Below, piece after piece: positions 17-39,633 of a stretch of DNA of 39,633 nt. The stretch comes from a virus. How positions within the stretch are numbered: position 1 is the first letter of the stretch; the number at the start of each line of letters is the position of its first letter. The stretch lies in IMG/VR virus record IMGVR_UViG_3300030385_001885, positions 1 through 39,633 of that record; one strand, written 5' to 3'. The notes under the pieces are model-generated. The model did not search any database, was not told the DNA's origin, and saw nothing but the letters and a program-made list of their open reading frames with translations. Both the position numbers and the translations under genes were made by a program.

Positions 17-70
17 GCAGATCTACCCGACACAACCAGGCCCGGCTGAATGAACACTCATTCAGTCAAT
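17..70. repeat. left copy of end module: hairpin CTGAATGA/TCATTCAG
   Basis: A perfect 8-bp inverted repeat (46-53 and 58-65) with a 4-nt loop ACAC is followed directly by GTCAAT. GCAGATCT lies at 17-24. The same hairpin (7-bp arms, loop GCCC) followed by GTCAAT occurs near the right end at 39525-39548, and GCAGATCT recurs at 39552-39559. The hairpin is seen directly; a role as replication origin, packaging or recombination site is inference. Confidence 0.75.
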
Positions 71-75
71 AATCG

Positions 76-101
76 GGTGCCTGGTTATGGCCAGGGGCAC
101 C
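76..101. other. stem-loop GGTGCC/GGCACC between hairpin and iterons
   Basis: GGTGCC (76-81) pairs with GGCACC (96-101). An inner TGG/CCA stem (82-84 with 91-93) and a 6-nt loop leave a two-base GG bulge. It is GC-rich with no T-tract after it, so it does not look like a terminator. It is probably part of the structured noncoding end. Confidence 0.5.
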
Positions 102-117
102 GGCTCTCGAGAACCCT

Positions 118-145
118 GCGAGACAAGGCGAGACACCGCGAGACA
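118..145 (+). repeat. three helically phased GCGAGACA iterons
   Basis: GCGAGACA occurs at 118-125, 128-135 and 138-145, exactly 10 bp apart, so all three copies face the same side of the helix. Two further copies with the same spacing lie at the right end (39597-39604, 39607-39614). Single copies occur inside left-arm genes at 2137, 2379 and 4817 in the same orientation, and one inverted copy at 15064-15071. Such arrays usually bind an initiator, a terminase or a regulator; which applies here is not shown. Confidence 0.7.
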
Positions 146-165
146 GGGCACCCCATATAACGTGT

Positions 166-194
166 TTGACGTACACATGAATTACGTGTACAAC
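166..194 (+). promoter_or_regulatory. sigma70-like early promoter
   Basis: TTGACG (166-171) and TACAAC (189-194) are separated by exactly 17 bp. They match the sigma70 -35 and -10 consensus at 5/6 and 4/6 positions. The predicted start is near 200-203, about 25 bases before the first gene at 226. This is the likely promoter of the left-arm operon. It overlaps a palindrome (171-191), so it is probably regulated. Confidence 0.6.
171..191. promoter_or_regulatory. palindromic operator candidate GTACAC-N9-GTGTAC
   Basis: GTACAC (171-176) and GTGTAC (186-191) form a perfect 6-bp inverted repeat, centre-to-centre 15 bp, within the promoter spacer and touching both hexamers. A third related half-site CGTGT lies at 161-165. 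The position is ideal for a dimeric repressor that blocks RNA polymerase. No repressor gene was recognised in the window. Confidence 0.5.
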
Positions 195-2216: not shown

Positions 2217-2677
2217 TGAGTAACGACAGAGAGATACCGTTTCTCACCGATAGCGCCTTCTTCCCCACCGTTGAGGACTTCATCCAGACGGAGGCTGGCT
2301 ACCTGTGGTCACGCATAGCAGGCAACGACCTACATGACATGGTCAGGCATTACGGGCACGAGTCTGTGGCAGCAGACTGCGAGACAGGTGTGCGCTCGCT
2401 CAAGGCGTGGCTCTGCGGTGCTAACCAGCCGCAACCTGACAGCCTATACCGCATGCGTTGCATCCACCCTGACTTCAGTTGCGACAAGACCATCTTGCAC
2501 ATCGGGTTCAAACGTGAACTCCGAGGCAACATGAAGCAGACCCTTGAGCGCCCTCCCATGGGGTTTGCTGCCATGGCTGTATCCGATCGCGTGAAGGCAG
2601 CTCGCTCTCGCTCTCGCAATAAAGCTGACCGCGTTGTCGCTCGGCACCGCGCTGCTGAGAAGAGGAGGGAGGGTTGA
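2216..2677 (+). CDS. hypothetical protein with basic C-terminus (153 aa)
   Basis: Not recognised. The ATG overlaps the preceding stop (TGATG); a TTG one codon earlier is possible. The N-terminal two thirds is mixed and includes several Cys and His. The last about 35 residues are strongly basic and helical (VKAARSRSRNKADRVVARHR), which suggests nucleic-acid contact. The stop overlaps the TTG start of the helicase-loader-like gene, so it may work next to that protein in replication initiation. This is inferred from position only. Confidence 0.7.
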   Translation: MSNDREIPFLTDSAFFPTVEDFIQTEAGYLWSRIAGNDLHDMVRHYGHESVAADCETGVRSLKAWLCGANQPQPDSLYRMRCIHPDFSCDKTILHIGFKRELRGNMKQTLERPPMGFAAMAVSDRVKAARSRSRNKADRVVARHRAAEKRREG

Positions 2678-3417
2678 AGCCTTGCCTCCGATGCAGCGGG
2701 GAGGGCTGGTTTGTTGAGGACGGATACGAGGTCGCATGTCGCTGCTCTATGGGCAAGACAGGCCTCGACAAGCCCAAGTGGCTCCGCGCCAATGAGGCCA
2801 TGAACCTCGTCCAGCGTGCCGTCCCGTCCAAGGTCCGGCGCTACACGTCCAACCACTACCAGTACGCGTTGCCCCACCGGGGCGAGGCAAACCGACTCAT
2901 GGTGGAGTGGCTGAGATGCGGTCTCAAGCTGAACACCGGACACCCCTCGATGTATTTCTGGGGGCCCACCGGTACAGGCAAGAGTGTGCTGGCTGCCGAG
3001 GCTGCCCGCTGTGCCCTCGTAGATGGCTCAGCAACGACGTTTCACTGGCTCAGTGAGGGTATCCTAGCCTCAGCGGTTAAGAGTCGCTTCCTGGACGGAG
3101 AACACCGAGATGCCAGAGCTACCCTCAAGGAGGCTACTGAGTGCGACCTCCTGGTCATCGACGAGTTCACCACCCAGGGCATGAGCATCTACTCCGCGCA
3201 AGCGATACGGGTGGTGGCCGACTTGCTCGCTGATAGGTTTGATAACGAGCGGCCAACGCTCATGACCAGCAACCGTGAATGGTGTGCCAAGGACTGGCCC
3301 ACCAGGTTGGTCTCTAGATGGGAGGTGAGTGTACGAGAAGTCGAGATAGGTGGCGTTGATATGCGCCGAATAGCAAGCCCCGGTTGCCCAGCCCTAAGGC
3401 AGACAACCGAGACTTGA
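2674..3417 (+). CDS. DnaC-like AAA+ ATPase, probable helicase loader (247 aa)
   Basis: The TTG start at 2674 is supported by AGGAGGGAGGG immediately upstream. An N-terminal metal site (C4, C7, C22, C24) precedes a AAA+ core: Walker A GPTGTGKS at 97-104, Walker B LLVIDE at 159-164, sensor-1-like TLMTSN at 195-200 and a candidate arginine finger near RLVSRW at 211-216. This is the layout of DnaC/DnaI-type loaders, which place the replicative helicase on DNA. No helicase gene is seen, so it presumably recruits the host enzyme. IstB-like transposition ATPases share the fold, but no transposase is present. Confidence 0.88.
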   Translation: MKPCLRCSGEGWFVEDGYEVACRCSMGKTGLDKPKWLRANEAMNLVQRAVPSKVRRYTSNHYQYALPHRGEANRLMVEWLRCGLKLNTGHPSMYFWGPTGTGKSVLAAEAARCALVDGSATTFHWLSEGILASAVKSRFLDGEHRDARATLKEATECDLLVIDEFTTQGMSIYSAQAIRVVADLLADRFDNERPTLMTSNREWCAKDWPTRLVSRWEVSVREVEIGGVDMRRIASPGCPALRQTTET

Positions 3418-7311: not shown

Positions 7312-7643
7312 GGATTCCCCCTATCCCATAGCAGCGACAACTTGAGCTCAAGTGCATTGACTGATGTGGCCAGCGAGTTCATCGTCTCCCTGAGCCTGGG
7401 GATCTCCTGCTCGAGGAGCTTCCGCATCGCCTTCCCCTGCTCTTCCATTCGCGCGAGCTCTATGCCGTGGCTTCCAATCGCCTTCTCTACGTTGTCGATA
7501 CGTGCCATCACTGGGCTCATATCAACTGGCTTACCACCTAGAGCCCACCCACCCGTGGCTGCGCCACCACCGATACCGAGCCCTATCAGTGCAGCAACGA
7601 GCTTGCTGTTGATTGCATTGCCATTTCCGTCAGCCATGCTCAT
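7308..7643 (-). CDS. putative lysis accessory protein: membrane anchor plus coiled coil (111 aa)
   Basis: One Gly-Ala-rich membrane segment (about 15-36) is followed by a helical, charged coiled-coil-like region (about 42-105: VMARIDNVEKAIG, ARMEEQGKAMRKLLEQEIPRLRE). This layout suits an inner-membrane spanin-like or holin-associated protein. It overlaps the end of the endolysin gene. AGGAG lies only 3 bases before the first ATG (7643) and 9 before the second (7637), so the second may be the true start. Confidence 0.6.
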   Translation of the reverse strand: MSMADGNGNAINSKLVAALIGLGIGGGAATGGWALGGKPVDMSPVMARIDNVEKAIGSHGIELARMEEQGKAMRKLLEQEIPRLRETMNSLATSVNALELKLSLLWDRGNP

Positions 7644-8493
7644 GTTCTCCTACCGTCAGGTTAACCATCTGGCCACCTGCCATCCAGTTGGTGTCGCACT
7701 TGCCACGTATCCCCGGTATCTTCCCCGCACCACTGGTTTGCCAGACGTCCCATTGGTCCCAGCCTGACGGTGCATTGTACGGCTCTGTGCGAGTGGCTGA
7801 CTTCTTGTAACTCGCCCACCAGACAGGGTACTCACAGAGGCGCTTCAGACTCCCTGCCGTACCTCGCTTTAGGTACAAGTCCCATGCCCACTTGGCTGTG
7901 TAGACGATGGGTCTGGCACGCACGCTGCACTCTATGTTGGTGAGCCATTCAATAGCCCACTCCACGTTGTACTGGTCATCGGTCTTCAGCCCATCCTCGA
8001 GGTCCAGCGCAGGCACCAAGTCGCCGCATCTCAGCCCGACCTTAGCCATGGCGTCGAGGTAGTTCTGAGCTTCATTGAACACGTCCTTCAAACCGATGTT
8101 GGTGTCGATGCGAGAGAAATGATAGCCGCCGACCTTCAGTCCAGCATCACGAGCTCCACGGAACTTAGCCTCATAGCCTGGGTTGGTGTGAGTAGTGCCC
8201 TCGGTGACCTTAATCCAGACGAAGTCGACTCCAGACTCGGCTACCTCATCCCACTTTATCGTGCCGTTGTGCGACGACACGTCGATGCCGAACAGTACTG
8301 GTATCCCCAAGCTCTCGAGGGTGGCGCTCCCAGCGATGCCATCGGCCATGAGACTCTTGTCCACCTGGTACTCGGTGACCGCAGTCTCGGTTAGAGACCC
8401 AAAGATACCGTCAGCCACGAGCCCCTTGTCCAGTGCTGTCTGGAGACGTTCGACCTCTTGGCCTCTGTTGCCACGTCTTAGTGTGTACATCAT
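7630..8493 (-). CDS. endolysin: peptidoglycan-binding domain plus GH25 muramidase (287 aa)
   Basis: Residues 1-62 are a PG_binding_1 domain with its two DGIFG/DGIAG half-repeats (LRRGNRGQEVERLQTAL, then VADGIFGSLTETAV and MADGIAGSATL). Residues 67-280 are a GH25 lysozyme: FGIDVSSHNG with the acidic residue D71, WIKVTEG with E98, YHFSR, and ALDLED with catalytic candidates D164 and E166. It cleaves the MurNAc-GlcNAc backbone to release progeny. An N-terminal binding domain with C-terminal catalytic domain is often seen in endolysins of phages infecting Gram-negative hosts. No signal peptide is present, so export relies on a holin. Confidence 0.93.
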   Translation of the reverse strand: MMYTLRRGNRGQEVERLQTALDKGLVADGIFGSLTETAVTEYQVDKSLMADGIAGSATLESLGIPVLFGIDVSSHNGTIKWDEVAESGVDFVWIKVTEGTTHTNPGYEAKFRGARDAGLKVGGYHFSRIDTNIGLKDVFNEAQNYLDAMAKVGLRCGDLVPALDLEDGLKTDDQYNVEWAIEWLTNIECSVRARPIVYTAKWAWDLYLKRGTAGSLKRLCEYPVWWASYKKSATRTEPYNAPSGWDQWDVWQTSGAGKIPGIRGKCDTNWMAGGQMVNLTVGEHEHG

Positions 8494-22988: not shown

Positions 22989-25912
22989 CAGCTCGTCCTC
23001 TTGCGCCGCAGAGGCCCAGTCTTGCCCTGTGGCCTCATCAGCAGGCGCAGTGAGTCAAAGACAAGCCTTACGCCAGTTTGCTGAGCGTGACCAAAGATCA
23101 TAGACGAGATGGTGCTCCCCTTCAGGAACTCACTTGTGCGCTTTTCGAATACCTCTTCATCCCCAATCAATACGTTTCCTGTGGCCTTTACGGCAGGGTC
23201 GCCCCAGACCAACAACGCATGATTGAAGAGGTCATAGAGCATGGCTTGGTCACCAGCACTCAGGTTAGCTATCCGCGTCTGAATCGTAGACTGGTCAATC
23301 ATTCTCTCGATGGCATCAAGCACAAACCTGTCGGTGGCATCCTCTGCCTTTCCTGCAAAGTCTACTATCTGCGACGAGTATTCTTTCAGGTCAGCGGCAC
23401 TGAGGGTGTTTAATAGCCCGGTCGCCCAGGTTGGGAACAGTCCGAGGCCAGACTTCCCGGCACCATGGCTCAAGACACGTATCGCCAAGCCTCGGAACAG
23501 GACCCGGTCTCCACTGTCCAGTCCAACCGATGGGGTCTTGTATGCCCAATCAACGCACTGAGCTTTGCCCTGCGTTACGGCTATCGTCTCTGGCGAATCG
23601 TTCCATTCGCGCCACATCAGTCCCATCCCAAGACGTATGGAGCCGACAAGGTCGCCCTGCATCTGACCGATCGTGGCAACGCCTGTTGCTGACTCCCACC
23701 CAATGCCCGACGTCTCTGTCTCGGTCTTGCGGTGCATCGGGATCCACATAAGCAAGTTCGGCCTCATGGCGATGACATTGAGCCTCTCCTTGGCCACCGT
23801 TGCTCCCGTGTCCCAGGGTGTCCATGAGCCCACTGCTGGAGACAAAGGCACCGTTGTTGAATCAAAATAGACCTGTATTTTATCTCCGTCCCTACTGGTC
23901 ACTGCTCCAGAGTAGCATGCAGCCCCAGCAGACGGCGCCGCAGAAAAAAGACCCGGATGATACCCGCATTCTGACGCCAACCTTTCAGAAGGCAGCACAA
24001 TACGCAGCCCTGCACCAACCGAATTTGCAAATACAGGGCGCCAGTTGGTGTTATCAAACAGAACCCGGACACTATACTCCACGACACCATCATAAAGAGA
24101 TGATGGGGGTATCATGTAGAGAGGAACCAGAAACGTGTTAGCCGTAGTGAATGCTGCCCCGCCGCCACCATCCAAAAACGTCGTCCCCTCTGGGACTGGC
24201 TGAGGCTTACCGAGCACAAATATTCCGTAACCGGCGACCCCGGCTGTTCCCGGGGATGGTATCGTGCCAGCCATATCATAATAGCCAGCCACCACTCGGC
24301 TGTCTTCATGACCATCATATCCAGCGGGGAACGCGGCACCCTTGGTTCTGTCTAACGCACCCCCCCTTCCATACTCGAGCACGTAAAAAGAACGCGAGGT
24401 GGTGCTCACCGGTGTGTCGTTTGTATCAGTGAAGGCCTCTACGTCAGGCCCACCAACCATGTACAGGTCATCGCCCTCGGCCAGCATCCAGGGGTTCTCG
24501 ATGTTTCTCGTCACGCCAACGGTGTCTGTCCCACCGCTTTGGTACACCTGACTCTCAGTTGACCACATCGACCAACGCCCACTACCACCAACCAAAACCG
24601 CGTTCTGCTCTGGCATCGATAGTAAGATGGCTCTGTACCGTGCGCTAAACGTCAGCGAGGCCCTCTTTGGATTGAAGGACCACTGGCAAGCAGGCTGGTC
24701 TGTTGCGACATCAGTGTACCCACTATCTGTGTAGTAGTTGGTGAGAGGATTAAGGAGCGATGACCGGAACAGGGGCTCAACAAGATCGGTCAGCGTAGAG
24801 ACCTTTAGCCCCTCGCCTGTGTGAATCCCATGACCATCGGCCCAGTAGACCTTATTGTTGACCTCGGTACACAGGGACGCACTTGAGCACCCGATGTCCT
24901 CGGCTACCTTCTCGAGCCGCCCCAGAGACTTCACAGCCCCATTGCTGGGCTGGTAGCGCCATGTCTCGTTTTCAGAGAATATCCACAGGGCTCCGAGCTG
25001 GTGAGCAACCGCTGTGAGCTCGGTCTCAGACGGTATGTTGAAGACGTTGCTCCCCACGATGTTACCAGGAAAGCCCGCATCGGTGATGTACACCGATCTG
25101 CCTGAGATATAGACAACATGGTTGCCCATGATTGTTGCATCGGATGCCGGTGGGAAGTCATCGCCACGTATGTATGGGAACTCGGCAGCGAAGGGGCCCT
25201 GACCCACCGTTATCGCAGTCACTATGGATGACTCCGAGTAATGGTTCATGGTGGCTTCATGAGGGATGATGGTGTCTAGCTGTACAGGCTTTCGCCGCTT
25301 CGGGAGCACAGCAGGCATGTAGACAAAGTTGCCTACCTTCCGCGCACCAAACAGGAGCATCCCCCGAAACTCTTGGAACCACCAATCGGTATCACTGTAC
25401 TCTCGCCACGCACGGTAATCTCTCCCGCTCTGGCTCCCCGCCGTCTCTTTGTGTCCATGCCAGCTGGCTAGCGGTCTCCAGTTAAGGTCAGCCTGCCCGA
25501 CCTTTATCTGCTGGACGACTGCGCTTTCACCCGTTGACCTGAACAGAACCTCTTCATGACGCGTATTGGTGGTCACGTCATAGATGATGACTGAGATGCA
25601 CCGTATGAGGTTGGACTGTATCTCGGTACTTCCGTCATACGATAGGTTCTCAAAGATGCTGACTATCTGCTTGTGACCAAAGCTGGTGTTCAGGATGGTC
25701 GATCCAAGGTGCTGCTGGAGACCCCAGTCGGACGTAGCGCCCGTGATGGGTCTTGATAGATCGGTCGTGTACTGCGTTACCTGCCCAAACCCTTTACGCA
25801 ACTCCCACCTGTCCTGCGTATACAGCAGGTTAAGGGCAAAGGCCCCCTGGTGCGGCTTTCTGGACTCAATGCCTGAGTCCATCCCCTCCAGTTCTTGGGT
25901 GGGTAGCGCCAT
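22988..25912 (-). CDS. putative tail nozzle (tail tubular protein B-like) (974 aa)
   Basis: Large, beta-rich, following the adaptor gene, which is the usual position of the podovirus nozzle. Segments resemble beta-propeller blades (ATIMGNHVVYISGRSVYITDAGFPG, LGALWIFSENETWRYQ, EVNNKVYWADGHGIHTGEG), a feature of nozzle proteins. The C-terminal 150 residues turn helical (LLNTLSAADLKEYSSQIVDFAGKAEDATDRF) and end in basic residues. The last base overlaps the neighbouring start. Family not proven by eye; assignment rests on fold hints and synteny. Confidence 0.65.
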   Translation of the reverse strand: MALPTQELEGMDSGIESRKPHQGAFALNLLYTQDRWELRKGFGQVTQYTTDLSRPITGATSDWGLQQHLGSTILNTSFGHKQIVSIFENLSYDGSTEIQSNLIRCISVIIYDVTTNTRHEEVLFRSTGESAVVQQIKVGQADLNWRPLASWHGHKETAGSQSGRDYRAWREYSDTDWWFQEFRGMLLFGARKVGNFVYMPAVLPKRRKPVQLDTIIPHEATMNHYSESSIVTAITVGQGPFAAEFPYIRGDDFPPASDATIMGNHVVYISGRSVYITDAGFPGNIVGSNVFNIPSETELTAVAHQLGALWIFSENETWRYQPSNGAVKSLGRLEKVAEDIGCSSASLCTEVNNKVYWADGHGIHTGEGLKVSTLTDLVEPLFRSSLLNPLTNYYTDSGYTDVATDQPACQWSFNPKRASLTFSARYRAILLSMPEQNAVLVGGSGRWSMWSTESQVYQSGGTDTVGVTRNIENPWMLAEGDDLYMVGGPDVEAFTDTNDTPVSTTSRSFYVLEYGRGGALDRTKGAAFPAGYDGHEDSRVVAGYYDMAGTIPSPGTAGVAGYGIFVLGKPQPVPEGTTFLDGGGGAAFTTANTFLVPLYMIPPSSLYDGVVEYSVRVLFDNTNWRPVFANSVGAGLRIVLPSERLASECGYHPGLFSAAPSAGAACYSGAVTSRDGDKIQVYFDSTTVPLSPAVGSWTPWDTGATVAKERLNVIAMRPNLLMWIPMHRKTETETSGIGWESATGVATIGQMQGDLVGSIRLGMGLMWREWNDSPETIAVTQGKAQCVDWAYKTPSVGLDSGDRVLFRGLAIRVLSHGAGKSGLGLFPTWATGLLNTLSAADLKEYSSQIVDFAGKAEDATDRFVLDAIERMIDQSTIQTRIANLSAGDQAMLYDLFNHALLVWGDPAVKATGNVLIGDEEVFEKRTSEFLKGSTISSMIFGHAQQTGVRLVFDSLRLLMRPQGKTGPLRRKRTS

Positions 25913-26574
25913 CAGTTATAGCCAAACGAACTACCGACCATTTCCATCATGTTGTCATCTCCCTGGAAGTTCCGCAGGTAGTCCTCATACCTCTGCATGA
26001 GCCGAGCCTTCCTGACCTCTAGCGGTTGATTGAGCGCAGCATCCCGGATGGCGTAGTGCTCATAGGCAAAACACGGGACGAGAGAATGCCCCACCTCATA
26101 GGAGTCAACGGGGTCTGTCGCTTCGGTCCACGTAATCGCATTCTTGTACGAGTAGAACAGCCTCAAGGTCTTGCTGCTGATGTGGTCCAGCATCAACCTG
26201 GTTCCCTGAAGCGACCACTTGTACTCCTGGCCTGACCTCATCGACCGCAGGGCGCGTGTCCCCTTGTACGGAGCTCCTATCAGACGACCCGTCTCTACCT
26301 CAGTCAGCACAAACGCCTGCGTGAGTCTTGAGCCATCAAGCGTCGCCGCCTGCATGATACGATTAGGAGCGACTGACAGGTCCACCGTGTCAGAGCCGCC
26401 GAACGCTACATCAAAGTAGGTCATGTAGGCGTGAGGGAGGATCCGGGTCGTCTCGAGCCAGAAGTCGCTGTAGCCCATATTCAGATAAGCCGATATCCGA
26501 GCGTCACTCAGCACGCTTGCATCGGACTCGTCCATGTATTCCATGAAGAGTTCTCTGACGTCAGCAGGCGTCAT
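25912..26574 (-). CDS. head-tail adaptor (tail tubular protein A-like) (220 aa)
   Basis: It begins with a helical segment MTPADVRELFMEYMDESDASVLSDARISAYLNMGYSDFW, typical of adaptor and gp11-like proteins that dock on the portal. The middle is beta-rich (YFDVAFGGSDTVDLS, LMLDHISSKTLRLFYSY). The C-terminal part (ALNQPLEVRKARLMQRYEDYLRNF) is the helix seen in many adaptors. The start overlaps the portal stop by ATGA. Order portal-adaptor-nozzle supports this. Confidence 0.75.
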   Translation of the reverse strand: MTPADVRELFMEYMDESDASVLSDARISAYLNMGYSDFWLETTRILPHAYMTYFDVAFGGSDTVDLSVAPNRIMQAATLDGSRLTQAFVLTEVETGRLIGAPYKGTRALRSMRSGQEYKWSLQGTRLMLDHISSKTLRLFYSYKNAITWTEATDPVDSYEVGHSLVPCFAYEHYAIRDAALNQPLEVRKARLMQRYEDYLRNFQGDDNMMEMVGSSFGYN

Positions 26575-28562
26575 GACATCGACCTCCCTCTACCTGTCTG
26601 CATGGCCTCAGCTTTCATCTGACCCCGTGACGCAGCCTCTCGGCCAACTCCCGGGCTCCCTCGATCTAACTGCTCAGAACTCAACGTCTGACTCTGCATG
26701 CCCACTCCACCCGGACCACCCGCATCAACGGGCGGCATCGCTGGGTTCATGGTCCTCATGCTGCTGACGCGAGGAGACACTCGACGATTGGCTTTGAGAG
26801 CAGCGTACTGCTCCTCAGCCATCCCAAACCCGATGACCTCGTAATAGACCTCGAGCAGCGCATCCTGCCTGTCGGGCGGGAGCTGGTAGAACTCGAAGTT
26901 ACGCATCGTCTGTTCAAGCACTTCCTGGAACACCTGCAGGTTGTCTGTCGGGAAGATCTCAGCCTGGGCCCCTTGCTTGACCGCATCGATGACGAATTGA
27001 GCGTGGCTGTAGTCCTTGACCCGGTTTATCCAGTAGACGTTCTGCCCTGTCGCTATCTCTCTTTGAGCCTCTTCTGGGGTCAGGATGCCCATCTGGACCT
27101 TGGCGTAGATCTCCTCAGCCATCGCATCCTGCTCCTTCATGAACAGGGAACGACCCTTGATAACCACATCTGGGCTGTCTGAGATGTTGGACGAGGTCAC
27201 CATCAGGTGAGTCCAAGCACCCTCTGAGTCGAGCATCGCGTGGAAGCGGTCTTCGTTGTAGAACACCTTCTGGAGCTTGAGCACCTGACACATGTGGTGA
27301 GCCAGGCTGTTCTCGATGGCGCTCATGGTTATCTGGAGTTGCTGGGTGTCTCGTGCAGCCAGCGCATTAATGGCCCGACCAGACTCAATGCCTGGCTGCC
27401 TTCGGCCTGTGCTCACGCCGTGAAAGCCTGCAACGTCATGCATCTTTGACTGCAGACGATGAGGAGCTTCCCGCACCCAGTCTGGTAGCTGAGGTGGTGT
27501 CAGGTAGCCTGGAGCTCCACCAGCGATGTGGTAGCCAATCTTCTCACCGAGCTGGTTGTTGAACGAGTCTGAGCGCACCCCAGAGCTATAGGGGATGAGG
27601 ACTTTGGGTTTGCCCATCATCGCCAGGGCATTGATGATGAGGGACTCAAACTCGTTGTGCAGGTACTGAAGCTCGAGCAGCGGCTCCAGGTAGCTGAGCC
27701 CCCAGAGCCTCTCTTCGACATCAGTGTACTTGGTTATCTGAACCGGGAAATGCCGGGTAGGGGCGGGCCACTCACCCTTGAAGATGAAGTCGTTGCCTAT
27801 GCTCACCGCCCACTTGTCATCTCGGAAGAACCACTCAAACACCTCTACGCGGTTCTTGGGCCTGTCAGCCGATGACTGCCCCAGGTAGGTGGAGTCAAAG
27901 GTATACGCGTTGGGCGCATTGGAGATGGCTTGGACAATCTTGCTCTTCTTCTTGCTGGCCTTCTTGGTATTATAGGCCTCTTCTAGAGACTCTCGAGAGA
28001 CCACGCTGCGGAGCGCAATCCACTCGCAGTGCTCCATCCGGTCCAGGCCCGGCTCTGGAAAGATGTCATAGGCGTTCAGGCTACGTGAGTATATCTCATC
28101 TTCTTCCTCGTCATAGCCTGCGACGAGGGCTGCCGTGCCGAACGATACAACCTGCTGGATGTGGCGAGAGATGACCTCTCGCATACCAGCGACCTCCCAG
28201 TGATACCTGAGTGAGACCTCTGCGCCAGTTGCCTTCGCGAGGTCTTCGATAGAGGGACTTGTCGGTCGAACCCGTATCGTAGGATACGTTGCCTGGAGGG
28301 TAGAAAGCGCGGTGCGATACAAGTCCAGGAGCAGATTAACAGTGATGCGACGGTTGCCGCCGCTGGCCTGTCTTAGCTGGTCATCGACGCCAGTCCATGC
28401 ACTGGAGCTCACATCGAAGTTCAGCCACTGGTAGCCGGCCAGGAACAGGCTGGACAGGTCCCACTTGCGCCGCTCTTGAGCACGGGCATCTCTAGCCCTC
28501 CCCATGAGGCGGGTTGGGTCAGAGGGGAAACCGTCCTTTGTTTTTCCTGAGTATGACGCCAC
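26571..28562 (-). CDS. portal protein (663 aa)
   Basis: Forms the dodecameric DNA channel at one capsid vertex. Features are LFLAGYQWLNFD near residue 41, RRITVNLLLDLYRTALSTLQATYP at about 70-95, conserved W/Y-rich middle segments (NRVEVFEWFFRDDKWAVS), the helical stem (SYLEPLLELQYLHNEFESLIINALAMMGKPKVL) and a Met/Gly/Gln-rich C-terminal tail ending in basic residues. The tail may be flexible. In transcription order this gene comes after the capsid gene, which is not the commonest head-gene order. Confidence 0.85.
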   Translation of the reverse strand: MASYSGKTKDGFPSDPTRLMGRARDARAQERRKWDLSSLFLAGYQWLNFDVSSSAWTGVDDQLRQASGGNRRITVNLLLDLYRTALSTLQATYPTIRVRPTSPSIEDLAKATGAEVSLRYHWEVAGMREVISRHIQQVVSFGTAALVAGYDEEEDEIYSRSLNAYDIFPEPGLDRMEHCEWIALRSVVSRESLEEAYNTKKASKKKSKIVQAISNAPNAYTFDSTYLGQSSADRPKNRVEVFEWFFRDDKWAVSIGNDFIFKGEWPAPTRHFPVQITKYTDVEERLWGLSYLEPLLELQYLHNEFESLIINALAMMGKPKVLIPYSSGVRSDSFNNQLGEKIGYHIAGGAPGYLTPPQLPDWVREAPHRLQSKMHDVAGFHGVSTGRRQPGIESGRAINALAARDTQQLQITMSAIENSLAHHMCQVLKLQKVFYNEDRFHAMLDSEGAWTHLMVTSSNISDSPDVVIKGRSLFMKEQDAMAEEIYAKVQMGILTPEEAQREIATGQNVYWINRVKDYSHAQFVIDAVKQGAQAEIFPTDNLQVFQEVLEQTMRNFEFYQLPPDRQDALLEVYYEVIGFGMAEEQYAALKANRRVSPRVSSMRTMNPAMPPVDAGGPGGVGMQSQTLSSEQLDRGSPGVGREAASRGQMKAEAMQTGRGRSMS

Positions 28563-29052: not shown

Positions 29053-30564
29053 TTAGACGGTAAGGGTCAATCCGCAAAGAACGCCGTTAGCGTTCGGGTG
29101 CTTGCAGATGAGTTGCATGTACCACGCGTAGTAGGCGTTGTAGGTATCGTGGGTTGCAATTCTCGACAGAACAGCACCGTCATCATCGGCCCACTTGCCC
29201 GGTGCCAGCTCGAGAATGCTCCAGCTACCCAGGTTGAGGAAGATGATGATCCCCTTGGGGACATGCTGAGCAGACTTGATGGGGATACCACCATAACGCA
29301 GCGTATCCACGTCAATACCAGCATCATTCCCAGTCGCCATCTTGCGAGTGAAGTTGCCCGGACTAGCACCCGCGATGTTGCCGATGAGCAGGTGAACGTA
29401 GGTCGCCTCCTGCATGTAGTTCATCAGCAAGCAATCAGGCGCCAACCGGCTACCCACCTCTTGACGGATGGTCGAGAGGACTTCCTGCAATCGCGACGCT
29501 GTCAGCGCAACCCGGTCACCGCCTGTCGTCGTTGCAGCCGTCAGGATGTTGCTCTTGAGCACCGGGTAGGTTGGAGAGGCTGTGTCATTACGAGCAGCGC
29601 CGCCAGATGCCGGGACCTCCCCCTGTCCACCCAAGTCAGGCAGAGACAGGTTGCCAAAGATTCCCGTGACCTCTGGCATCGCAGTCCCGGTAAAGAAGCC
29701 CGTCGCGATGGCACCAGTGAAGCCGAAGTCCGCTGGTGACCGGCCTAGCGCAGTTGGGCCTGCCACGTCATGCCCTTGCACCTCGTGGAGGACCACCGCA
29801 ATACCAACACCCGTCGCAACATCTAAAGTAGTGAAATTATCACTGGCTGCCTCTGTCGCAAGCCGCAAGCCAATCGTAGAAGCAGCAGCATCGTATTGAG
29901 AGATGAAGATGTTGGAGAACGTGGGGCCGCCAATAATGGTCACCTCTTCATAGGTGTCCATCCGAATAAGTTTAACATGCACCCAGGTAGCACCCGTACC
30001 ATCCACTGGCTGGACAGTAAGAGCCTGAAGACGAGTGAACTCGCCACTGTACTCCCAGTCCACAACATTGCTTGCAGCACCGTCAAGGGCAGCATCGCCG
30101 TTGCTGTTGCCATCTGTGGTGGTGTCATTGAGCTTGTGCTGGTTGAGATAACCGATGCACGTACCACCAGAGATGGTCATGCGGTCGGTGAAGTTCAGCA
30201 CATCGTTGCGGCAGCCATCGAGTTCCAGGTCAGCCCAGGAGATGACCGCACCAACGCCGCGAGCTTCTGCTGAACGCATGGCAGCGCGGGTGACCTCGAT
30301 GCGACCATAGATGCGCTTGTGTCGCACCTGAATCTTGGTGGTCTCTTGTGAGTTGGCGTCCGGCAGCTCGCCGGTATCGCTAACCCCTACACCAATGTTC
30401 CGGCCAGTCCGCAGAAACAGCACACACATGTTGCCGTTCCATTCAACGACTTCCTTCTCGAACAACTCGAGCACAAGGTAGTCGCGGTTAAGCTGGTCTT
30501 CCAGCTCAGAAAGATAGTAACGCTTAAGGATCCCTTCGAAGGTAGCGATCGTAGTAGTCGCCAT
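29053..30564 (-). CDS. major capsid protein, HK97-fold type (503 aa)
   Basis: An N-terminal helix (ATFEGILKRYYLSELEDQLNRDYLVLELF) is followed by strands and the region KIQVRHKRIYGRIEVTRAAMRSAEARGVGAVISWADLELDGCRNDVLNFTDRMTISG, typical of capsid E-loop and spine-helix regions. The C-terminal third contains PDCLLMNYMQEATYVHLL and the substrate-like DTLRYGGIPIKSAQHVPKG. High Gly/Thr/Asn content and position right after the scaffold-like gene support the call. GGAGGAG precedes the start. Confidence 0.82.
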   Translation of the reverse strand: MATTTIATFEGILKRYYLSELEDQLNRDYLVLELFEKEVVEWNGNMCVLFLRTGRNIGVGVSDTGELPDANSQETTKIQVRHKRIYGRIEVTRAAMRSAEARGVGAVISWADLELDGCRNDVLNFTDRMTISGGTCIGYLNQHKLNDTTTDGNSNGDAALDGAASNVVDWEYSGEFTRLQALTVQPVDGTGATWVHVKLIRMDTYEEVTIIGGPTFSNIFISQYDAAASTIGLRLATEAASDNFTTLDVATGVGIAVVLHEVQGHDVAGPTALGRSPADFGFTGAIATGFFTGTAMPEVTGIFGNLSLPDLGGQGEVPASGGAARNDTASPTYPVLKSNILTAATTTGGDRVALTASRLQEVLSTIRQEVGSRLAPDCLLMNYMQEATYVHLLIGNIAGASPGNFTRKMATGNDAGIDVDTLRYGGIPIKSAQHVPKGIIIFLNLGSWSILELAPGKWADDDGAVLSRIATHDTYNAYYAWYMQLICKHPNANGVLCGLTLTV

Positions 30565-31537: not shown

Positions 31538-33229
31538 CTAGTTGCCGAGCCGGCCTATCTGGCCGAGCGCCTCGCTTGGCGAAGCGGCAGCGGGATTTTC
31601 ACCCCTCTGATCTAGAAAACGACCTTTGTGGTCGGGTAGATACTTACACGTCTCTGCTTCCCATCGCAACCTCTCTTCAACTCCAGAGGGTGCCTCGGAC
31701 CAGACGCGCTCTTGTTCTACCTGGAAAGTCTGGTCGATCCCCATCATGGCCAAAGCGGTTGCTATGATCATGTCATCCAGGCACCCAGGGGCAGCCTCGC
31801 CGCGCTGGTTGTCCCCGAAAACAAAGGTATTAACCTGAGACTTGGTCACCTTGCAGCGGGGTTCGTACATGCCTCGGTTGATGTACGCGCTGATGCGTTG
31901 GAGCATCAACCACCTACTGTCTTCACGCGTAGCAAACCCAAGCTGTTCCCGGTAACGGGACTCTGCCTTGCGGTTATCGTACTTAACCCTGCGATATATA
32001 TAGGGATATCCCTCATCAACTAAGTGATTTAAAATCACAATACCGTTCGCGTTGATCTCAGGTACCACCATGGCTCCGTACTTGAGCCCCACCTCGAGGA
32101 CCATCTTGGCGAAGTCTGAGGGCCTAATCTTCCCGTTGTACTTGTAGACATCACGCGGGTGTTTCTTGTCGGTGACGTCCAGCACCTTGATGGCTGAGTC
32201 TGTGCCGAACGGTGAGCCTGACGCGGTATCACAGCCGAGGACGTAGATGCGGTACTTCTTGGGCTCCTCAAAGGTCTCTGCCCCGCTCTCAGCCTTGATG
32301 AACTCGTAGTAGGGCTCAAAGAAGCGGTCGGAGGTCGCGATGAAGGCCATGTTCGCATTACATGGGCGCTCTTGACAGAATGATTTCCACGAGTTGCCGC
32401 ACTTGGTCTCCAGCGTATGTTGTCCCCAGTAGACTTGTCTGCGCGTGAGCTTCTGTTTGATAGCGAGCTCATGGAGCTTGGGATGGATCTCCCTGGGCTT
32501 TTTAAAGCGCATAGCGGCTGGGTCATGCTGCCATCCGATAAACAGCTTCTCGAAGCCGTTCTGCTCCACCCACAGGTCGTAGATGCGGTTCCGTCCACGG
32601 GCTGTGGTCTCGAGCACGATGTCAGGGTTATCGGCTGCAGTGTTCAGCACTGCGTTCATGACCTCATCGAAGTGCGAGTACTTGGCTGCCTCGGTCAGGT
32701 GGATGTAGTTGAAGGTCGCAGACCGGGCCCCTTCAGCTCCTCGACCAGCGGTGATAGCGAGGATGTAGCCATCGTGCGCGAACTCCATCTCGTTCCGGTT
32801 ATCGGTCGTAAGCGTGAACCACTTCACTCTCCGCATCCAGAGCGGTAAGTACTTGTAATAACGGCTATATATCCTGAAGACGTACCTTGTTGAGGTAGTG
32901 TCGAGCGAGGTCACGATAGCTTCATGCCCAAAGTTGAACATGACCTTCCAGAAGTAGAAGGCTGAGATGATGGTAGTCAGGCCCAGCTTCCGGCTTTTGA
33001 CGATGAGTGTATTACGGTTCTTGGCTCTGGACTTGAGCCACATCACCTGAGCTGGCCACGGGTCGAGGTGAACCAGTCTCTTTGCCCTGTCTCTGATACG
33101 CAGGTAGTTGCGAGAGAAGTACAGGAACGACCTGGCGCACCGACGAAGCTCTCTGCGTTGCCATGGAGAGAGGTCTTTGAGGTCATCGACCCAGGAGACG
33201 TCTAGTGATTTAGCCTCGTCTTTGTTCAC
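31538..33229 (-). CDS. terL: terminase large subunit (563 aa)
   Basis: Powers DNA packaging and cuts concatemers. The ATPase half has a variant Walker A KSRKLGLTT at 78-86, Walker B FNYIHLTE at 173-180 and a coupling motif ETTA at 207-210. The RNase-H-like nuclease half has LGCDTASG with D334, PEINANG with E391 and LDDMIIATALA with D485/D486. The GTG start at 33229 overlaps the small-subunit stop (GTGA). The 563-aa length is within the normal range for large terminases. Confidence 0.93.
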   Translation of the reverse strand: MNKDEAKSLDVSWVDDLKDLSPWQRRELRRCARSFLYFSRNYLRIRDRAKRLVHLDPWPAQVMWLKSRAKNRNTLIVKSRKLGLTTIISAFYFWKVMFNFGHEAIVTSLDTTSTRYVFRIYSRYYKYLPLWMRRVKWFTLTTDNRNEMEFAHDGYILAITAGRGAEGARSATFNYIHLTEAAKYSHFDEVMNAVLNTAADNPDIVLETTARGRNRIYDLWVEQNGFEKLFIGWQHDPAAMRFKKPREIHPKLHELAIKQKLTRRQVYWGQHTLETKCGNSWKSFCQERPCNANMAFIATSDRFFEPYYEFIKAESGAETFEEPKKYRIYVLGCDTASGSPFGTDSAIKVLDVTDKKHPRDVYKYNGKIRPSDFAKMVLEVGLKYGAMVVPEINANGIVILNHLVDEGYPYIYRRVKYDNRKAESRYREQLGFATREDSRWLMLQRISAYINRGMYEPRCKVTKSQVNTFVFGDNQRGEAAPGCLDDMIIATALAMMGIDQTFQVEQERVWSEAPSGVEERLRWEAETCKYLPDHKGRFLDQRGENPAAASPSEALGQIGRLGN

Positions 33230-33768
33230 TTATAAAGCTCATCATCGTCTACATCAGCATCGTACTCGTCGACCTCCAGGTCCAGCACTTTCACATCTGG
33301 TGGTATCTCAGTGGGCACCCCTCCCCTGGTTACCTCTACAATCTTGGCTCTTCTCAGGGTGTTCTTCAGTTCCTGCTCTTCGGCCTGGAGCTCGGCTATC
33401 CTTTCTTTGATATGGGAGGAGATCTTACCATCGGTCCTGAACCGGCTGTCACCGACCTCCAAGAGCCACTTGGCAGCTCTCCAGTCGTCAGCTGCAGACT
33501 CGCGCACCTTTAGCACGAGGCCCATCAGAGAGGCAGCGTGGGCCCGCTGGCACCTATCCCAGAACAACAGGTACTCACAGTCCATATCTGTAGCATCGGC
33601 TGCCTTGAAGACTTCCATGAGCTGACGCTCGCTCAGCCCCACAGAGGCTGCCGAGGAGCCAAAGGGCATGCCGTTCTGCAGATTCCTTACTATGATCCCT
33701 CTTTCTTTCGGGTTCGGGAGTCTGGGCTTTTCTTCTTGCTGGATGCCTTTGTCTTTCTCCAGAGCCAT
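33226..33768 (-). CDS. terS: terminase small subunit (180 aa)
   Basis: N-terminal helix-turn-helix pattern RNLQNGMPFGSSAASVGLSERQLMEVFKAAD (about 28-58), then a helical core with AADDWRAAKWLLEVGD and a coiled-coil segment (ERIAELQAEEQELKNTLRRAK). The C-terminal acidic tail ends DEYDADVDDDELYK. This matches the terminase small subunit plan: DNA recognition, oligomerisation, large-subunit contact. It overlaps TerL by GTGA and the upstream gene by 79 bases. Confidence 0.85.
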   Translation of the reverse strand: MALEKDKGIQQEEKPRLPNPKERGIIVRNLQNGMPFGSSAASVGLSERQLMEVFKAADATDMDCEYLLFWDRCQRAHAASLMGLVLKVRESAADDWRAAKWLLEVGDSRFRTDGKISSHIKERIAELQAEEQELKNTLRRAKIVEVTRGGVPTEIPPDVKVLDLEVDEYDADVDDDELYK

Positions 33769-34145
33769 TCGTTTATACTCCTGTCCGTCTTCTTGGCCAT
33801 ACGCTCTATGAGTCCCTTCCTCTCTAGCCTTATGAGTGTGTAGTGCAGTTGCACTCTTCCCAGGTATCCGAGGCCATACATCCTCATCCTGATTCTCAGG
33901 TCATCTCTTTCCATCCAATCTTCATTAAGTGCCCGGTAAGCTATTCTCTCGAGGCGTCCTTTGAGATAGACTGCAGTTCGTTCTTTTTTACTTTTGTTCT
34001 TATTGTGTTTGGGTGGTGGGGACTTCCCCGGTTCTTGTTCCTCATCACCCGTCTCCACTTTCTTAGAAGCCGGTAGTGCGCCGTAGACTCTCCGCACCTT
34101 TTCTTCCCCCCCGACCTCACCGCCCTGGCCTCTGCTGTCCTCCAT
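33690..34145 (-). CDS. winged-helix-like basic protein (151 aa)
   Basis: The C-terminal part (about 60-130) reads as a winged helix: helices in LKGRLERIAYRALNEDWMERDDLRIRM, then a recognition-helix-like YLGRVQLHYTLIRLERKGLIERM and a wing. N- and C-termini are Lys/Arg-rich and probably disordered. It could be a late regulator or assist terminase at the packaging site. It overlaps the upstream transglycosylase-like gene by 205 bases and TerS by 79 in other frames. No closer in-frame ATG before residue 78 fits. Confidence 0.6.
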   Translation of the reverse strand: MEDSRGQGGEVGGEEKVRRVYGALPASKKVETGDEEQEPGKSPPPKHNKNKSKKERTAVYLKGRLERIAYRALNEDWMERDDLRIRMRMYGLGYLGRVQLHYTLIRLERKGLIERMAKKTDRSINEWLWRKTKASSKKKSPDSRTRKKEGS

Positions 34146-35962: not shown

Positions 35963-36053
35963 AGCAAGGTCACCGTGCTTGCATTATGAGCGTCTTAGTT
36001 GTGGCGTTAATTATCATGGATCGTGATTAAGATAAACCCCTAAAATTACAGGG

Positions 36054-36065
36054 GAAACATGTTTC
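36054..36065. promoter_or_regulatory. perfect palindrome GAAACATGTTTC
   Basis: A 12-bp perfect inverted repeat sharing the AACATGTT core with its neighbours. It sits about 100 bases before the first right-arm gene and 92 bases from the leftward GTG start. Candidate binding site for a regulator of the divergent promoters. Confidence 0.6.
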
Positions 36066-36106
36066 ATGCGCAAAGTAGGTAACTATCTTTAGGTGGTCTT
36101 ACTTGT

Positions 36107-36118
36107 GGAACATGTTCC
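36107..36118. promoter_or_regulatory. perfect palindrome GGAACATGTTCC
   Basis: A 12-bp perfect inverted repeat in the leader of the gene at 36169, centred 53 bp from the GAAACATGTTTC site. The GAAC/GTTC arms are only 2 bases apart, so it is not a Gram-positive SOS box, which needs 4. Confidence 0.6.
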
Positions 36119-36168
36119 GTGCTGTCACTGTGTCTCATCTTCTCTCACTCACATTGGAGCCTAGGATC

Positions 36169-36810
36169 ATGAGTCAACCCACAATCGATAGTCTCTGGAC
36201 TACCGTCTACGCCATCTTCCACCGCTGTGGTCTAGAAGAGACCTTAGGCTGTGGTGACGAGCGCTGTGTCTTTGATGTTATCGCGCGGTGCGCCATCGAT
36301 GACAACGACCCGGAGCCAGTGACCTATCTTACCGGCTACTTTCTTGATGGCGCCGACTACCCCGAATTGCACGCTAAAGCCCTTAAGCTTGCTAGTCTTG
36401 CCGATGCCCAGAGCGGCGAAGACCTAGGTGCTGCACTTAAGCTCTTGGCCGCACTCAATACCATCCTGACCGCTACGGGTGAGTTCACGCTTGATCGTGA
36501 TTATGAGATCCAAGGTTTTGTGGATTGGTTCGGTCTCTTCGCATTGGACACTGAGACCGACTGTCACCCGACACTGATGGAAGCTGTTGATTATTGGTTG
36601 GAAGTCTCATGGGGTCACCCGGATCTTGATGGCGTGGGTCTTGAACTTAGGGACCGCGCCTATAATGAACTTGTAAAGCTCACGCGGTTACAGGCTAAGC
36701 GTATCACTCACCTCGAGTCCCTACTGTTATCGCAGCCACGATCGCCTTACCACCCACACGCCATAGTGTTTGCCAACCATGCCAAGGGTAAGGGTGGCAC
36801 CAGTGTTTGA
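36169..36810 (+). CDS. hypothetical protein, first right-arm gene (213 aa)
   Basis: I chose ATG 36169 because GGAG and AGGA lie just upstream and the start at 36103 (TTG) would run over the palindrome. Not recognised. Helical, acidic (DNDPEPVTYLTGYFLDGADYPELHAKALKLASLADA), with LTRLQAKRITHLESLL as a coiled-coil-like segment near the C-terminus and a His/Pro tail. No membrane segment. It is rich in GATC-bearing codons (GATCGT, GATCTT) like the rest of the right arm. Confidence 0.7.
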   Translation: MSQPTIDSLWTTVYAIFHRCGLEETLGCGDERCVFDVIARCAIDDNDPEPVTYLTGYFLDGADYPELHAKALKLASLADAQSGEDLGAALKLLAALNTILTATGEFTLDRDYEIQGFVDWFGLFALDTETDCHPTLMEAVDYWLEVSWGHPDLDGVGLELRDRAYNELVKLTRLQAKRITHLESLLLSQPRSPYHPHAIVFANHAKGKGGTSV

Positions 36811-36877
36811 ATTCATCTGCCTTGGAGCGATCGCTATTCTTATCGCGATAGACTTTATCAAAGAGATCCGATCCTAA
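36779..36877 (+). CDS. tiny membrane protein candidate (32 aa)
   Basis: A short frame overlaps the end of the preceding gene and ends at TAA 36877. From ATG it gives 32 aa; from the GTG at 36803, preceded by AAGGGTGG, it gives 24 aa. The hydrophobic core FEFICLGAIAILIAIDFI is a single membrane helix with a basic-acidic end (KEIRS). It fills most of the gap before the TC repeat. Tiny, so uncertain. Confidence 0.45.
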   Translation: MPRVRVAPVFEFICLGAIAILIAIDFIKEIRS

Positions 36878-36901
36878 TCTCTCTCTCTCTCTCTCTCTCT
36901 C
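36878..36901. repeat. dinucleotide repeat (TC)12
   Basis: 24 bases of uninterrupted TC lie directly before AGGAG (36902-36906) and the ATG at 36911. A simple repeat at this place in the leader could vary by slippage and change expression. Such long tracts are rare in phage genomes of this size. Confidence 0.95.
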
Positions 36902-36910
36902 AGGAGCCTT

Positions 36911-37420
36911 ATGATGTTCAACTTATACGATGCTATCCGTAGCAGTACCATCCACGAAGCCGCGACCATGCTAGCCGATTGCGCTAGCCTATCGCGCAAG
37001 CTGAAGAGCGGGTTACATGGCACAGCCGCGTGGTCTTGCCTGTCTTCTATTGAAAGTCTGCACCGTGACGTCTGCTCGGCCAACGATAGCAAGCTGAGCT
37101 CCGATGCTCTTGACCGCTGGTTTTGGTCGATTGTCGCTATCAGTATCTCAGATGTTGTCGAGGACGATCTGGCCCCATGGGAGATCGCCAATAGCAGGCT
37201 TGCAACGTGGATACACTCGCACGATGTTACGACCGAATCACAGTTGGGTGCTCTTATCATCGCTGCAGTGGACGCCTTAAAAGACGCTGTAACCGTGGCC
37301 GATGGCCGCGTCTATGATGATGACGATGATCTATGGTCCTATCATCCGTGCGATCTGCAGCGCTGGCGCGATTATGATTACAGCGTCTACCGTGACGATC
37401 GCGTCACTGAGAGCCTGTAA
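36911..37420 (+). CDS. hypothetical protein (169 aa)
   Basis: ATG at 36911 follows AGGAG with a 4-base spacer. A second ATG is adjacent. Not recognised. Helical N-terminal half (LYDAIRSSTIHEAATMLADCASLSRKL, AAWSCLSSIESLHRDVC), and an acidic, aromatic C-terminus (DDDDDLWSYHPCDLQRWRDYDYSVYRDD). The stop overlaps the next ATG (TAATG). The preceding TC repeat gives it unusual control potential. Confidence 0.7.
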   Translation: MMFNLYDAIRSSTIHEAATMLADCASLSRKLKSGLHGTAAWSCLSSIESLHRDVCSANDSKLSSDALDRWFWSIVAISISDVVEDDLAPWEIANSRLATWIHSHDVTTESQLGALIIAAVDALKDAVTVADGRVYDDDDDLWSYHPCDLQRWRDYDYSVYRDDRVTESL

Positions 37421-37884
37421 TGGTAGCACCATGCGACTACCACGGCGCACCCTATCTGGAGTCCGTCAAGCGTACCCACGATCATGCTACGCTCGAATTG
37501 ATCTCGTGGGATATGCACATAACCGCCCACAATCGTCTGCTAGGCTTGGCAGTGAGCCTTTACGACGGGTCCACCATGCCAGTCACTAGCAGTGACGGAC
37601 TCTCGGCCGAATACGATGACACTGGGGTGCTCTGCTTTGTAGTTCCGATCTGTGAGCATATCGGCGCTGTCAACCATACTGACACCCCACGCGTTCGCCT
37701 AGATCGTACCCGCGACACGATCCACCGTATCGTGGAATGCGACACCCGATACCATTACGTTGACCCCTACTCTGGTGACACTGAGACCGCGTCCTACGAA
37801 TTGCGGTTCAAGCGTTCAGACTCTGCCTTGTTCTACCGGTTCGACTCTCTCTTTACTTATAGGTCTGTAAAATGCCCAAATTAA
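37420..37884 (+). CDS. hypothetical protein (154 aa)
   Basis: Not recognised. Starts at the TAATG overlap with the preceding gene. Mixed alpha/beta with several Cys and His (PCDYHGAPYLE, ICEHIGAVNH) and a C-terminal beta region (DTETASYELRFKRSDSALFYRFDSLF). The 3' end overlaps the zinc-ribbon gene by 13 bases in another frame. Probably co-translated with its neighbours. Confidence 0.65.
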   Translation: MVAPCDYHGAPYLESVKRTHDHATLELISWDMHITAHNRLLGLAVSLYDGSTMPVTSSDGLSAEYDDTGVLCFVVPICEHIGAVNHTDTPRVRLDRTRDTIHRIVECDTRYHYVDPYSGDTETASYELRFKRSDSALFYRFDSLFTYRSVKCPN

Positions 37885-38270
37885 TCCACGTCAATACACT
37901 CCCCGCTTGCGATACTTGCGACGGTGTCGCGCGCTACGATGTCAAGTCCAAGCAAGGCCCATGGGGTTACTTTTGTGACCCATGTTTCAAAGTCCGCGGT
38001 ATCGGTCTCGGCACTGGACTTGGCCAGGAATTAATAGCTGGAGCGCCGTATCCTAACGCCAAACCCGTGATCAAACCCACTACGAAACGGGAAATCCAGT
38101 ACACGCTTGAAGATCTGCACGCTATGATCGATGAGTCCGTCCTAGACTCTACCCCATGCCCTCATTGTCACTGTACCCAACGCGTTGAACCTGATGCTTG
38201 CGACTATACGTGTCACGAGTGTGGCAACGGTACCGTCTCAAGTCCCCTAGTGGCCGCAGGATTGATCTAA
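37872..38270 (+). CDS. double zinc-ribbon protein (132 aa)
   Basis: The N-terminal ribbon has C13/C16 (ACDTCDG) and C35/C38 (FCDPCF), and includes the recurring phage pattern RYDVKSKQGPWGYFCDPCFKVRGIGLGTGLGQ. The C-terminal ribbon has C96/C99 (CPHC) and C114/C117 (CHEC). The N-terminal block is shared by small Zn proteins in many phages, without known function. It may bind nucleic acid or protein. Its stop overlaps the next ATG (TAATG). Confidence 0.75.
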   Translation: MPKLIHVNTLPACDTCDGVARYDVKSKQGPWGYFCDPCFKVRGIGLGTGLGQELIAGAPYPNAKPVIKPTTKREIQYTLEDLHAMIDESVLDSTPCPHCHCTQRVEPDACDYTCHECGNGTVSSPLVAAGLI

Positions 38271-38452
38271 TGAAAGCGAAACACGAATACTGGACGTTTC
38301 AATTCGCCAATGATCCTAGTCCCATAACCATGGGACCGATTGACATTGGCAAGCCTGTTACCGAGCACCAGATCACAAGGTATATTCAAAAGAAGTATGA
38401 AATCACGTCACCCGTGACTGTATGGCCACACACACCTTGGTGGCTGGTCTAG
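38270..38452 (+). CDS. small hypothetical protein (60 aa)
   Basis: ATG overlaps the stop of the zinc-ribbon gene. Aromatic-rich ends (EYWTFQFAND, WPHTPWWLV) surround a short helix (TEHQITRYIQKKYEI). Not recognised. It is the last gene before a terminator-like hairpin. Confidence 0.65.
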   Translation: MKAKHEYWTFQFANDPSPITMGPIDIGKPVTEHQITRYIQKKYEITSPVTVWPHTPWWLV

Positions 38453-38478
38453 TCCTTGTTTCCCTTGTCCCGTTAATG

Positions 38479-38516
38479 CTCCCGATTGCCTAGCAGTAGT
38501 CGGGGGCCTTTTATTT
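38479..38516 (+). terminator. rho-independent terminator or attenuator
   Basis: Stem CTCCCGA (38479-38485) with TCGGGGG (38500-38506), with an inner TGC/GCA pairing, is followed by CCTTTTATTT. The GGAG ribosome site of the next gene (38517-38520) begins right after the T-tract, so the hairpin may control how much of the last right-arm gene is made. Confidence 0.7.
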
Positions 38517-38528
38517 GGAGTATGAAAC

Positions 38529-39275: not shown

Positions 39276-39300
39276 CACCCGCAAGCTTAGCACCCGGAAT

Positions 39301-39334
39301 AGCCTGGATCGCTTTACGCGGTCCGGGCTTTTCG
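39301..39334 (+). terminator. strong rho-independent terminator
   Basis: A 12-bp stem (39301-39312 with 39318-39329, two G-T wobbles) with a 5-base loop TTTAC, followed by TTTC. It ends the right-arm transcription unit 26 bases after the Cys-rich gene and insulates the end repeats. Confidence 0.8.
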
Positions 39335-39515
39335 TGTTTCCGGCCATGACACGTAAGCGCTACAGAATAGCGCCTAGAATCGATCGCGCGCGGTGTAGGG
39401 GTCCACCAGTATGGATTGACACTACAGCGCACGATCTAGTGGCATGCCAGCGCCATTAACGGGGCTGTGGACGCTATTGGTTCGCCTATAGATCCAAACC
39501 ATGGCCGATATGGCC

Positions 39516-39559
39516 AGATCTGTATGAATGAGCCCTCATTCAGTCAATTTTGCAGATCT
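39516..39559. repeat. right copy of end module: hairpin TGAATGA/TCATTCA between AGATCT sites
   Basis: TGAATGA (39525-39531) and TCATTCA (39536-39542) with loop GCCC are followed by GTCAAT, the same as the left copy at 47-70. AGATCT lies on both sides (39516-39521 and 39554-39559). The distance to the first GCGAGACA iteron is 54 bases, against 52 on the left. Confidence 0.75.
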
Positions 39560-39596
39560 GACGCTCCAGGCCAGGCCCGCCAGGCCAACGGCTCCA

Positions 39597-39614
39597 GCGA
39601 GACAAGGCGAGACA
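39597..39614 (+). repeat. two helically phased GCGAGACA iterons (right end)
   Basis: GCGAGACA at 39597-39604 and 39607-39614, 10 bp apart, followed by a degenerate third unit GCGCCAGC at 39617. Matches the left array at 118-145 in sequence, spacing and orientation. Confidence 0.7.
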
Positions 39615-39633
39615 AGGCGCCAGCAGCTCGCGC

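Follow-up and report, generated by a model that had tools for sequence, protein, structure and literature searches.

What function is served by two similar modules, each a palindrome followed by short direct repeats, that lie at the two ends of a single viral genome record? We analysed the whole of IMG/VR virus record IMGVR_UViG_3300030385_001885 (39,633 bp, hereafter the window). A preliminary description of its sequence had read the modules as an old duplicated functional site, such as a replication origin, a packaging site or a phage-specific segregation site.

The window combines leftward late genes, encoding TerL (31538-33229), TerS (33226-33768), the major head protein (29053-30564), a P22-like portal (26571-28562) and an endolysin (7630-8493), with rightward early genes that start at 226. 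The first of these (226-522) encodes 98 amino acids with no family match, and others encode a Dam-like methylase (1417-1941), a DnaC-like loader (2674-3417), a Gp157/Gam-like protein and an ERF annealing protein. TerL is of the T4 gp17 type and its matches in the phage collection, mostly T4-like, share about 20-29% identity; at the DNA level, the window has no match in that collection. A lysine-rich ORF on the minus strand (33690-34145) overlaps the TerS start and has a weak winged-helix/MarR-like match (E 0.03); its product is a possible DNA-binding protein.

The motif TGAATGA-N4-TCATTCA-GTCAAT occurs in the window in exactly two copies, the palindromes P1 (39525-39548) and P2 (47-70), with 0 expected in shuffles, so that its duplication, as first described, is real. 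Both copies of TGAATGA-N4-TCATTCAGTCAAT are free of mismatches, and no other site lies within 3 mismatches. On the minus strand both copies read ATTGACTGAATGA, which accounts for the GTCAAT included in the motif.

Each palindrome is followed on the plus strand by GCGAGACA iterons in a 10-bp phase, which were confirmed as three units on the left (118-145, with starts at 118, 128 and 138) and two on the right (39597-39614, with starts at 39597 and 39607), plus a degenerate right unit, GCGCCAGC, at 39617. The palindrome-to-iteron distance, given earlier as 52-54 bases, is 53 and 54 bp from the end of the palindrome (71 bp on the left and 72 bp on the right from its start). The sequence between them had been described as differing, but it is not simply different. 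On the plus strand, motif A (TATGGCCAG, a 9-nt match) lies upstream of P1 at 39509-39517 and downstream of P2 at 86-94, and motif B (GCAGATCT-N11-CCAGGCCCG) lies at 39552-39579 and at 17-44, its two matches falling on one diagonal and in register. The significance of these shared motifs is inferred from match lengths. The order is therefore A-P-B-I at the right end, then B-P-A-I at the left end, with A and B swapped relative to the palindrome.

The junction in the closest relative

Scans with TerL, TerS and the major capsid protein, together with a conserved-block pattern, were run against IMG/VR and returned one contig only; TerL motifs found no relative in the genome contigs. This contig, IMGVR_UViG_3300025132_000159 (32,445 bp), the only close relative found, encodes a TerL and a TerS that are 86% and 80% identical to those of the window. 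It spans the window from 11.5 kb to 39.4 kb and then continues, unbroken, to about 5.4 kb. Since the two ends of the window are contiguous in this relative, they represent one locus on a circular map. The two modules thus exist, as proposed, but not as two distant sites. Four rightward ORFs of the window (36180-38600) have no counterpart in the relative, where about 300 bp occupy the corresponding interval.

The locus is bordered on the left by an intrinsic terminator (39301-39336, plus strand, a 12-pair stem with a T-rich tail) of the rightward gene at 38529-39275. This GATC-rich gene matches phrog_2554, of unknown function; its protein has relatives in Mycobacterium, Gordonia, Klebsiella and Roseobacter phages, and the gene is the last of the record in Roseobacter phages CRP-118 and CRP-403. 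Beyond the terminator lies a conserved non-coding block with a GCCTAGAATCGATYGCRCGCG core (39367-39407, plus strand), which is 83% identical to the relative over 41 nt and was found in no other IMG/VR contig. On the right, a candidate early promoter, TTGACG-N17-TACAAC (166-194, plus strand), keeps its position in the relative as TTGACA-N17-TAGAAG; it has the top promoter score of the junction in both phages, yet this score stays within the background range. The last seven bases of the window, CTCGCGC (39627-39633), are identical to bases 1-7 (chance about 1e-4), and collapsing this 7-mer yields the junction AGCT-CGCGC-AGCT.

The relative carries the palindrome as a single copy, CACTGAATGA-CCAT-TCATTCAGTG, flanked by TTCAC where the window copies have TTGAC, and lacks the GCGAGACA array. 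From GCCTAGAATCGAT of the block to the palindrome, the relative has 149 bp and the window (to P1) 153 bp; from there to the promoter motif TGTTTGAC, the relative has 115 bp and the window (from P2) 116 bp, a conserved spacing. The single palindrome is thus spaced like P1 upstream and like P2 downstream, and the window carries about 150 bp more, reflecting a tandem gain, a loss in the relative or contig ends that are two alleles. The one relative compared conserves the palindrome in place but lacks the iterons, and the doubling is confined to the contig analysed here. What stands of the proposed duplicated functional site is a real, non-chance and partly conserved cis-acting site; a doubled site with iterons is not what the relative carries.

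Match to a bacterial fatty-acid operator

The palindrome is far more frequent in bacteria than expected. ACTGAATGA-N4-TCATTCAGT was found in at least 115 stretches of 257 Gb of bacterial genomes versus about 4 expected, by our own estimate from the collection size. Among the matches listed, 78 of 116 sites lie between ORFs, and the ORF clusters beside them include TetR-like (about 20 loci), acyl-CoA dehydrogenase-like (10) and AMP-binding synthetase-like (5) products. Pfam searches with three cluster representatives identified two TetR_N proteins (one with a YsiA-like TetR_C_4 domain) and one acyl-CoA dehydrogenase; the remaining clusters were named by sequence similarity to these representatives or by inspection. 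A shorter core is present in 102 of 151 genomes of one class (reversed control pattern, 2) and in 15 of 299 genomes of another phylum (reversed control, 0). In the metagenome-assembled genome ErkenSummer_bin-5044, the palindrome lies on at least 12 contigs (L047, L051, L059, L083 and L087, for example); its spacers there are mostly AGCC, AGCT or GGCC, and the promoter flank is absent. These copies are a dispersed repeat rather than an operator set.

Finer features of the bacterial sites recur in the phages. Among the matches listed, A hardly ever occurs at spacer position 2 of the bacterial sites, nor T at position 3. The spacers of the phage sites, three in number (ACAC, GCCC and CCAT), fit this bias, which would happen by chance about one time in five, and CCAT is also found in sites beside TetR genes in two bacterial loci (L062 and L069). 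The 9-bp arms of the relative's palindrome are those of the bacterial consensus. Among the matches listed, 31 of 202 bacterial arms read TTGACTGAATGA versus 3.2 expected, which fuses the operator to a -35 box and places it in a promoter of the form TTGACTGAATGA-N4-TCATTCAGTAYNAT, and many TTGACTGAATGA arms continue with GTAYNAT past the far arm. We conclude that the palindrome is most likely a TetR/FadR-type operator, an identity, judged from sequence, that the preliminary description had not considered and that matches better than its options. FadR proteins of the TetR type are acyl-CoA responsive in both bacteria and archaea (PMC6449355). The window shares with the FadR/YsiA-type operators of fatty-acid oxidation genes the arms, the 4-nt spacer, the spacer bias and the TTGAC-operator fusion; it differs from them in that the site is in a phage, in two copies, upstream of an early promoter and with no TetR gene nearby. 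The alternative of an RNA hairpin as the main reading was rejected on two grounds: the region has a terminator on one side and the early promoter on the other, and its motif matches the operator of a dimer.

In IMG/VR, the core has 31 matches versus roughly 20 expected by our own estimate, without clear enrichment, but two unrelated phage contigs stand out with two and three copies between ORFs. The first (G002, 25143-25359; 4872-5088 of L008) has a pair of TGAATGA-N4-TCATTCA palindromes at a distance of 199 bp, with a D5-type primase nearby and CATGTCAATACCGGAC direct repeats around them. The second (G003, L014 363-418), a 40.8-kb viral contig, has three tandem palindromes 19 bp apart. If such palindromes are operators for a host repressor, these copies suggest that multiple operators arose in phages more than once. 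A TetR_N search had no match in the window, the relative or these two contigs, and was positive in 14 of 14 control genomes; absence from some of the phage contigs counts for little because those contigs are fragments. A phage-encoded TetR was thus rejected, with no TetR_N match in the window or its relative.

We propose, with a probability of roughly 0.4, that the palindromes are operators for an acyl-CoA-responsive TetR repressor, probably host encoded, in the early control region of the phage. The proposal draws on four findings: the palindrome has the sequence of the bacterial operator, it is conserved in the relative with its spacing kept, the -35/operator flank is common to the window and the bacterial sites, and the TetR_N search of the phage was negative. 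The putative control region of about 0.6 kb would extend from the terminator of the 38529-39275 gene to the early promoter at 166-194, with both modules inside, and P1 and P2 would both be sites for acyl-CoA-responsive (YsiA/FadR-like) repressors of the TetR family. The search for a TetR gene in the phage came up empty, so the TetR dimer is most likely host encoded; it may bind both operators and modulate outgoing transcription, that of the rightward early operon and possibly a leftward start at P1. Release of the repressor by acyl-CoA would then change early transcription; binding by a host regulator, the ligand and the direction of the effect are inferred parts of this model.

Several observations count against this operator model. 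The early -35 element is about 100 bp downstream of P2, which does not cover it. The minus strand of P1 has a promoter-like element with an embedded candidate operator (TTGACT-N17-TACAGA), and P2 has CTGAAT-N16-AATAAT, but both are within background and the minus-strand -10-like hexamer is found at P1 only; moreover, transcription leftward from P1 would be antisense to 38529-39275. The exact site is missing from most sampled genomes of one phylum, the relative has TTCAC instead of the TTGAC flank, viral contigs overall show no clear enrichment of the motif, and the iterons and motifs A and B are unexplained. Even so, we consider the repeat more likely to be an early-gene control switch than a proven replication or packaging site.

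The iterons form an element of their own, particular to this contig, to which another regulator or a replication protein plausibly binds. Lone GCGAGACA units are not rare in the window (40 with one mismatch versus 40.6 expected); it is the 10-bp repetition that sets GCGAGACA apart, alone among the non-microsatellite 8-mers of the window. The idea of a widespread motif was rejected, since GCGAGACA-N2-GCGAGACA has 20 matches across IMG/VR, near chance, and none in a relative. An unrelated viral contig (L161) has two facing GCGAGACA arrays about 400 bp apart (3873 and 4278), each beside an inverted unit, which look like the ends of a small element.

Alternative readings: replication origin, assembly alleles and packaging ends

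In iteron origins of phages and plasmids, helically phased direct repeats lie close to an early operon, and the window likewise has such repeats near its early genes. The region could accordingly be a replication origin in which an initiator binds the iterons, the palindrome is accessory and the DnaC-like loader (2674-3417) serves the site, a reading that we regard as rather doubtful. Its non-coding stretch of several hundred base pairs holds both phased iterons and palindromes, the cumulative GC skew reaches its minimum at 38803, near the junction, although the genes to either side are rightward, the densest GATC cluster of the genome adjoins the region in both phages, and the window encodes a Dam-like methylase (1417-1941). 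The two palindromes near a D5-type primase in the unrelated contig, with other direct repeats around them, point the same way. However, the skew is confounded by gene orientation, no initiator was recognised, and the units are only 8 bp long and present in two or three copies. In addition, the iterons have not been conserved with the replication genes: the relative lacks them although it keeps the DnaC-like region.

The GATC enrichment itself forms a domain that ends at the palindrome, with 44 sites in 3.6 kb (36000-39633) versus about 13 expected and a peak of 11 in 300 bp at 38871-39160; the relative has a like enrichment at the matching place, and no convincing homologue of the Dam-like methylase was found in it. 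Within the 38529-39275 gene, 13 sites were counted versus about 6 expected from codons and amino acids (p about 0.0004-0.001), and in its counterpart in the relative 10 versus about 6 (p 0.02-0.06), so that about half of the sites in the window gene follow from its codons and amino acids. A P1-like pac with GATC sites, suggested by this cluster, was rejected in view of the spread of the enrichment over 36.0-39.6 kb and its partial origin in codons and amino acids.

The doubling might also be unreal, the contig ends being two diverged alleles of a single-copy locus that the assembler left unjoined. This reading concerns copy number rather than function, and is compatible with the other readings. 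In its favor, the single palindrome of the relative fits P1 by its upstream distance and P2 by its downstream distance, as if the ends overlapped by about 150 bp. We nonetheless consider it unlikely: the swap of motifs A and B relative to the palindrome would be odd for alleles, the 7-nt identity of the ends would have to be due to chance, and both strains would need to have everything else in the contig in common.

Lastly, the window ends could be the cohesive ends of the virion, and the flanking modules cosB-like recognition sites of the terminase. The contig does end inside a module on both sides, and the 7-nt identity of its two termini (chance about 1e-4) is what filling in a 5' overhang would produce, although this is not proof. 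In lambda-type cos, the short direct repeats of cosB lie near the cohesive ends, and the window likewise has short direct repeats near possible cohesive ends. In contrast to lambda-type cos, they lie on both sides and are not conserved despite a terminase that is 80-86% identical. Recognition repeats would be conserved along with the terminase, and the absence of the iterons from the relative despite the identities of TerS (80%) and TerL (86%) weakens the idea that they are the terminase site. Moreover, the relative has no similar junction sequence and its contig is unbroken there, and the T4 gp17-like TerL and the P22-like portal are of types best known from headful packaging. Virion cohesive ends thus seem improbable. 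T7-type direct terminal repeats were rejected, as the modules are not identical and share short motifs only, with a longest direct match of 18 nt.

Possible host regulation of the phage

Under the preferred operator reading, a lytic-looking phage without a TetR gene would carry, in its early control region, paired operators of the acyl-CoA-sensing TetR repressor of its host. We tentatively raise two possible uses, though the odds are against them: gating of the early programme by the fatty-acid state of the host, or titration of the repressor. Phage promoters read by host nutrient regulators are already known for phosphate: in the Synechococcus cyanophage S-PM2d, gel shifts demonstrated that the host regulator PhoB binds phage promoter regions carrying PhoB boxes, and also that predicted boxes are unreliable without binding data (PMC10976474). 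The phage described here would be similar in having host regulator sites in promoter regions, tied to the nutrient state of the host; it differs in the regulator and the signal, and in that gel shifts established the cyanophage case, while ours is made from sequence alone.

The junction also indicates that a repeat may be an operator despite its resemblance to an origin or packaging element, and that a viral contig may have its two apparent "ends" within a single locus. If the operator reading is true, any titration by replicating genomes would switch on host fatty-acid oxidation, and infection would be linked to lipid metabolism through a fatty-acid regulator site in the early control region of the phage.
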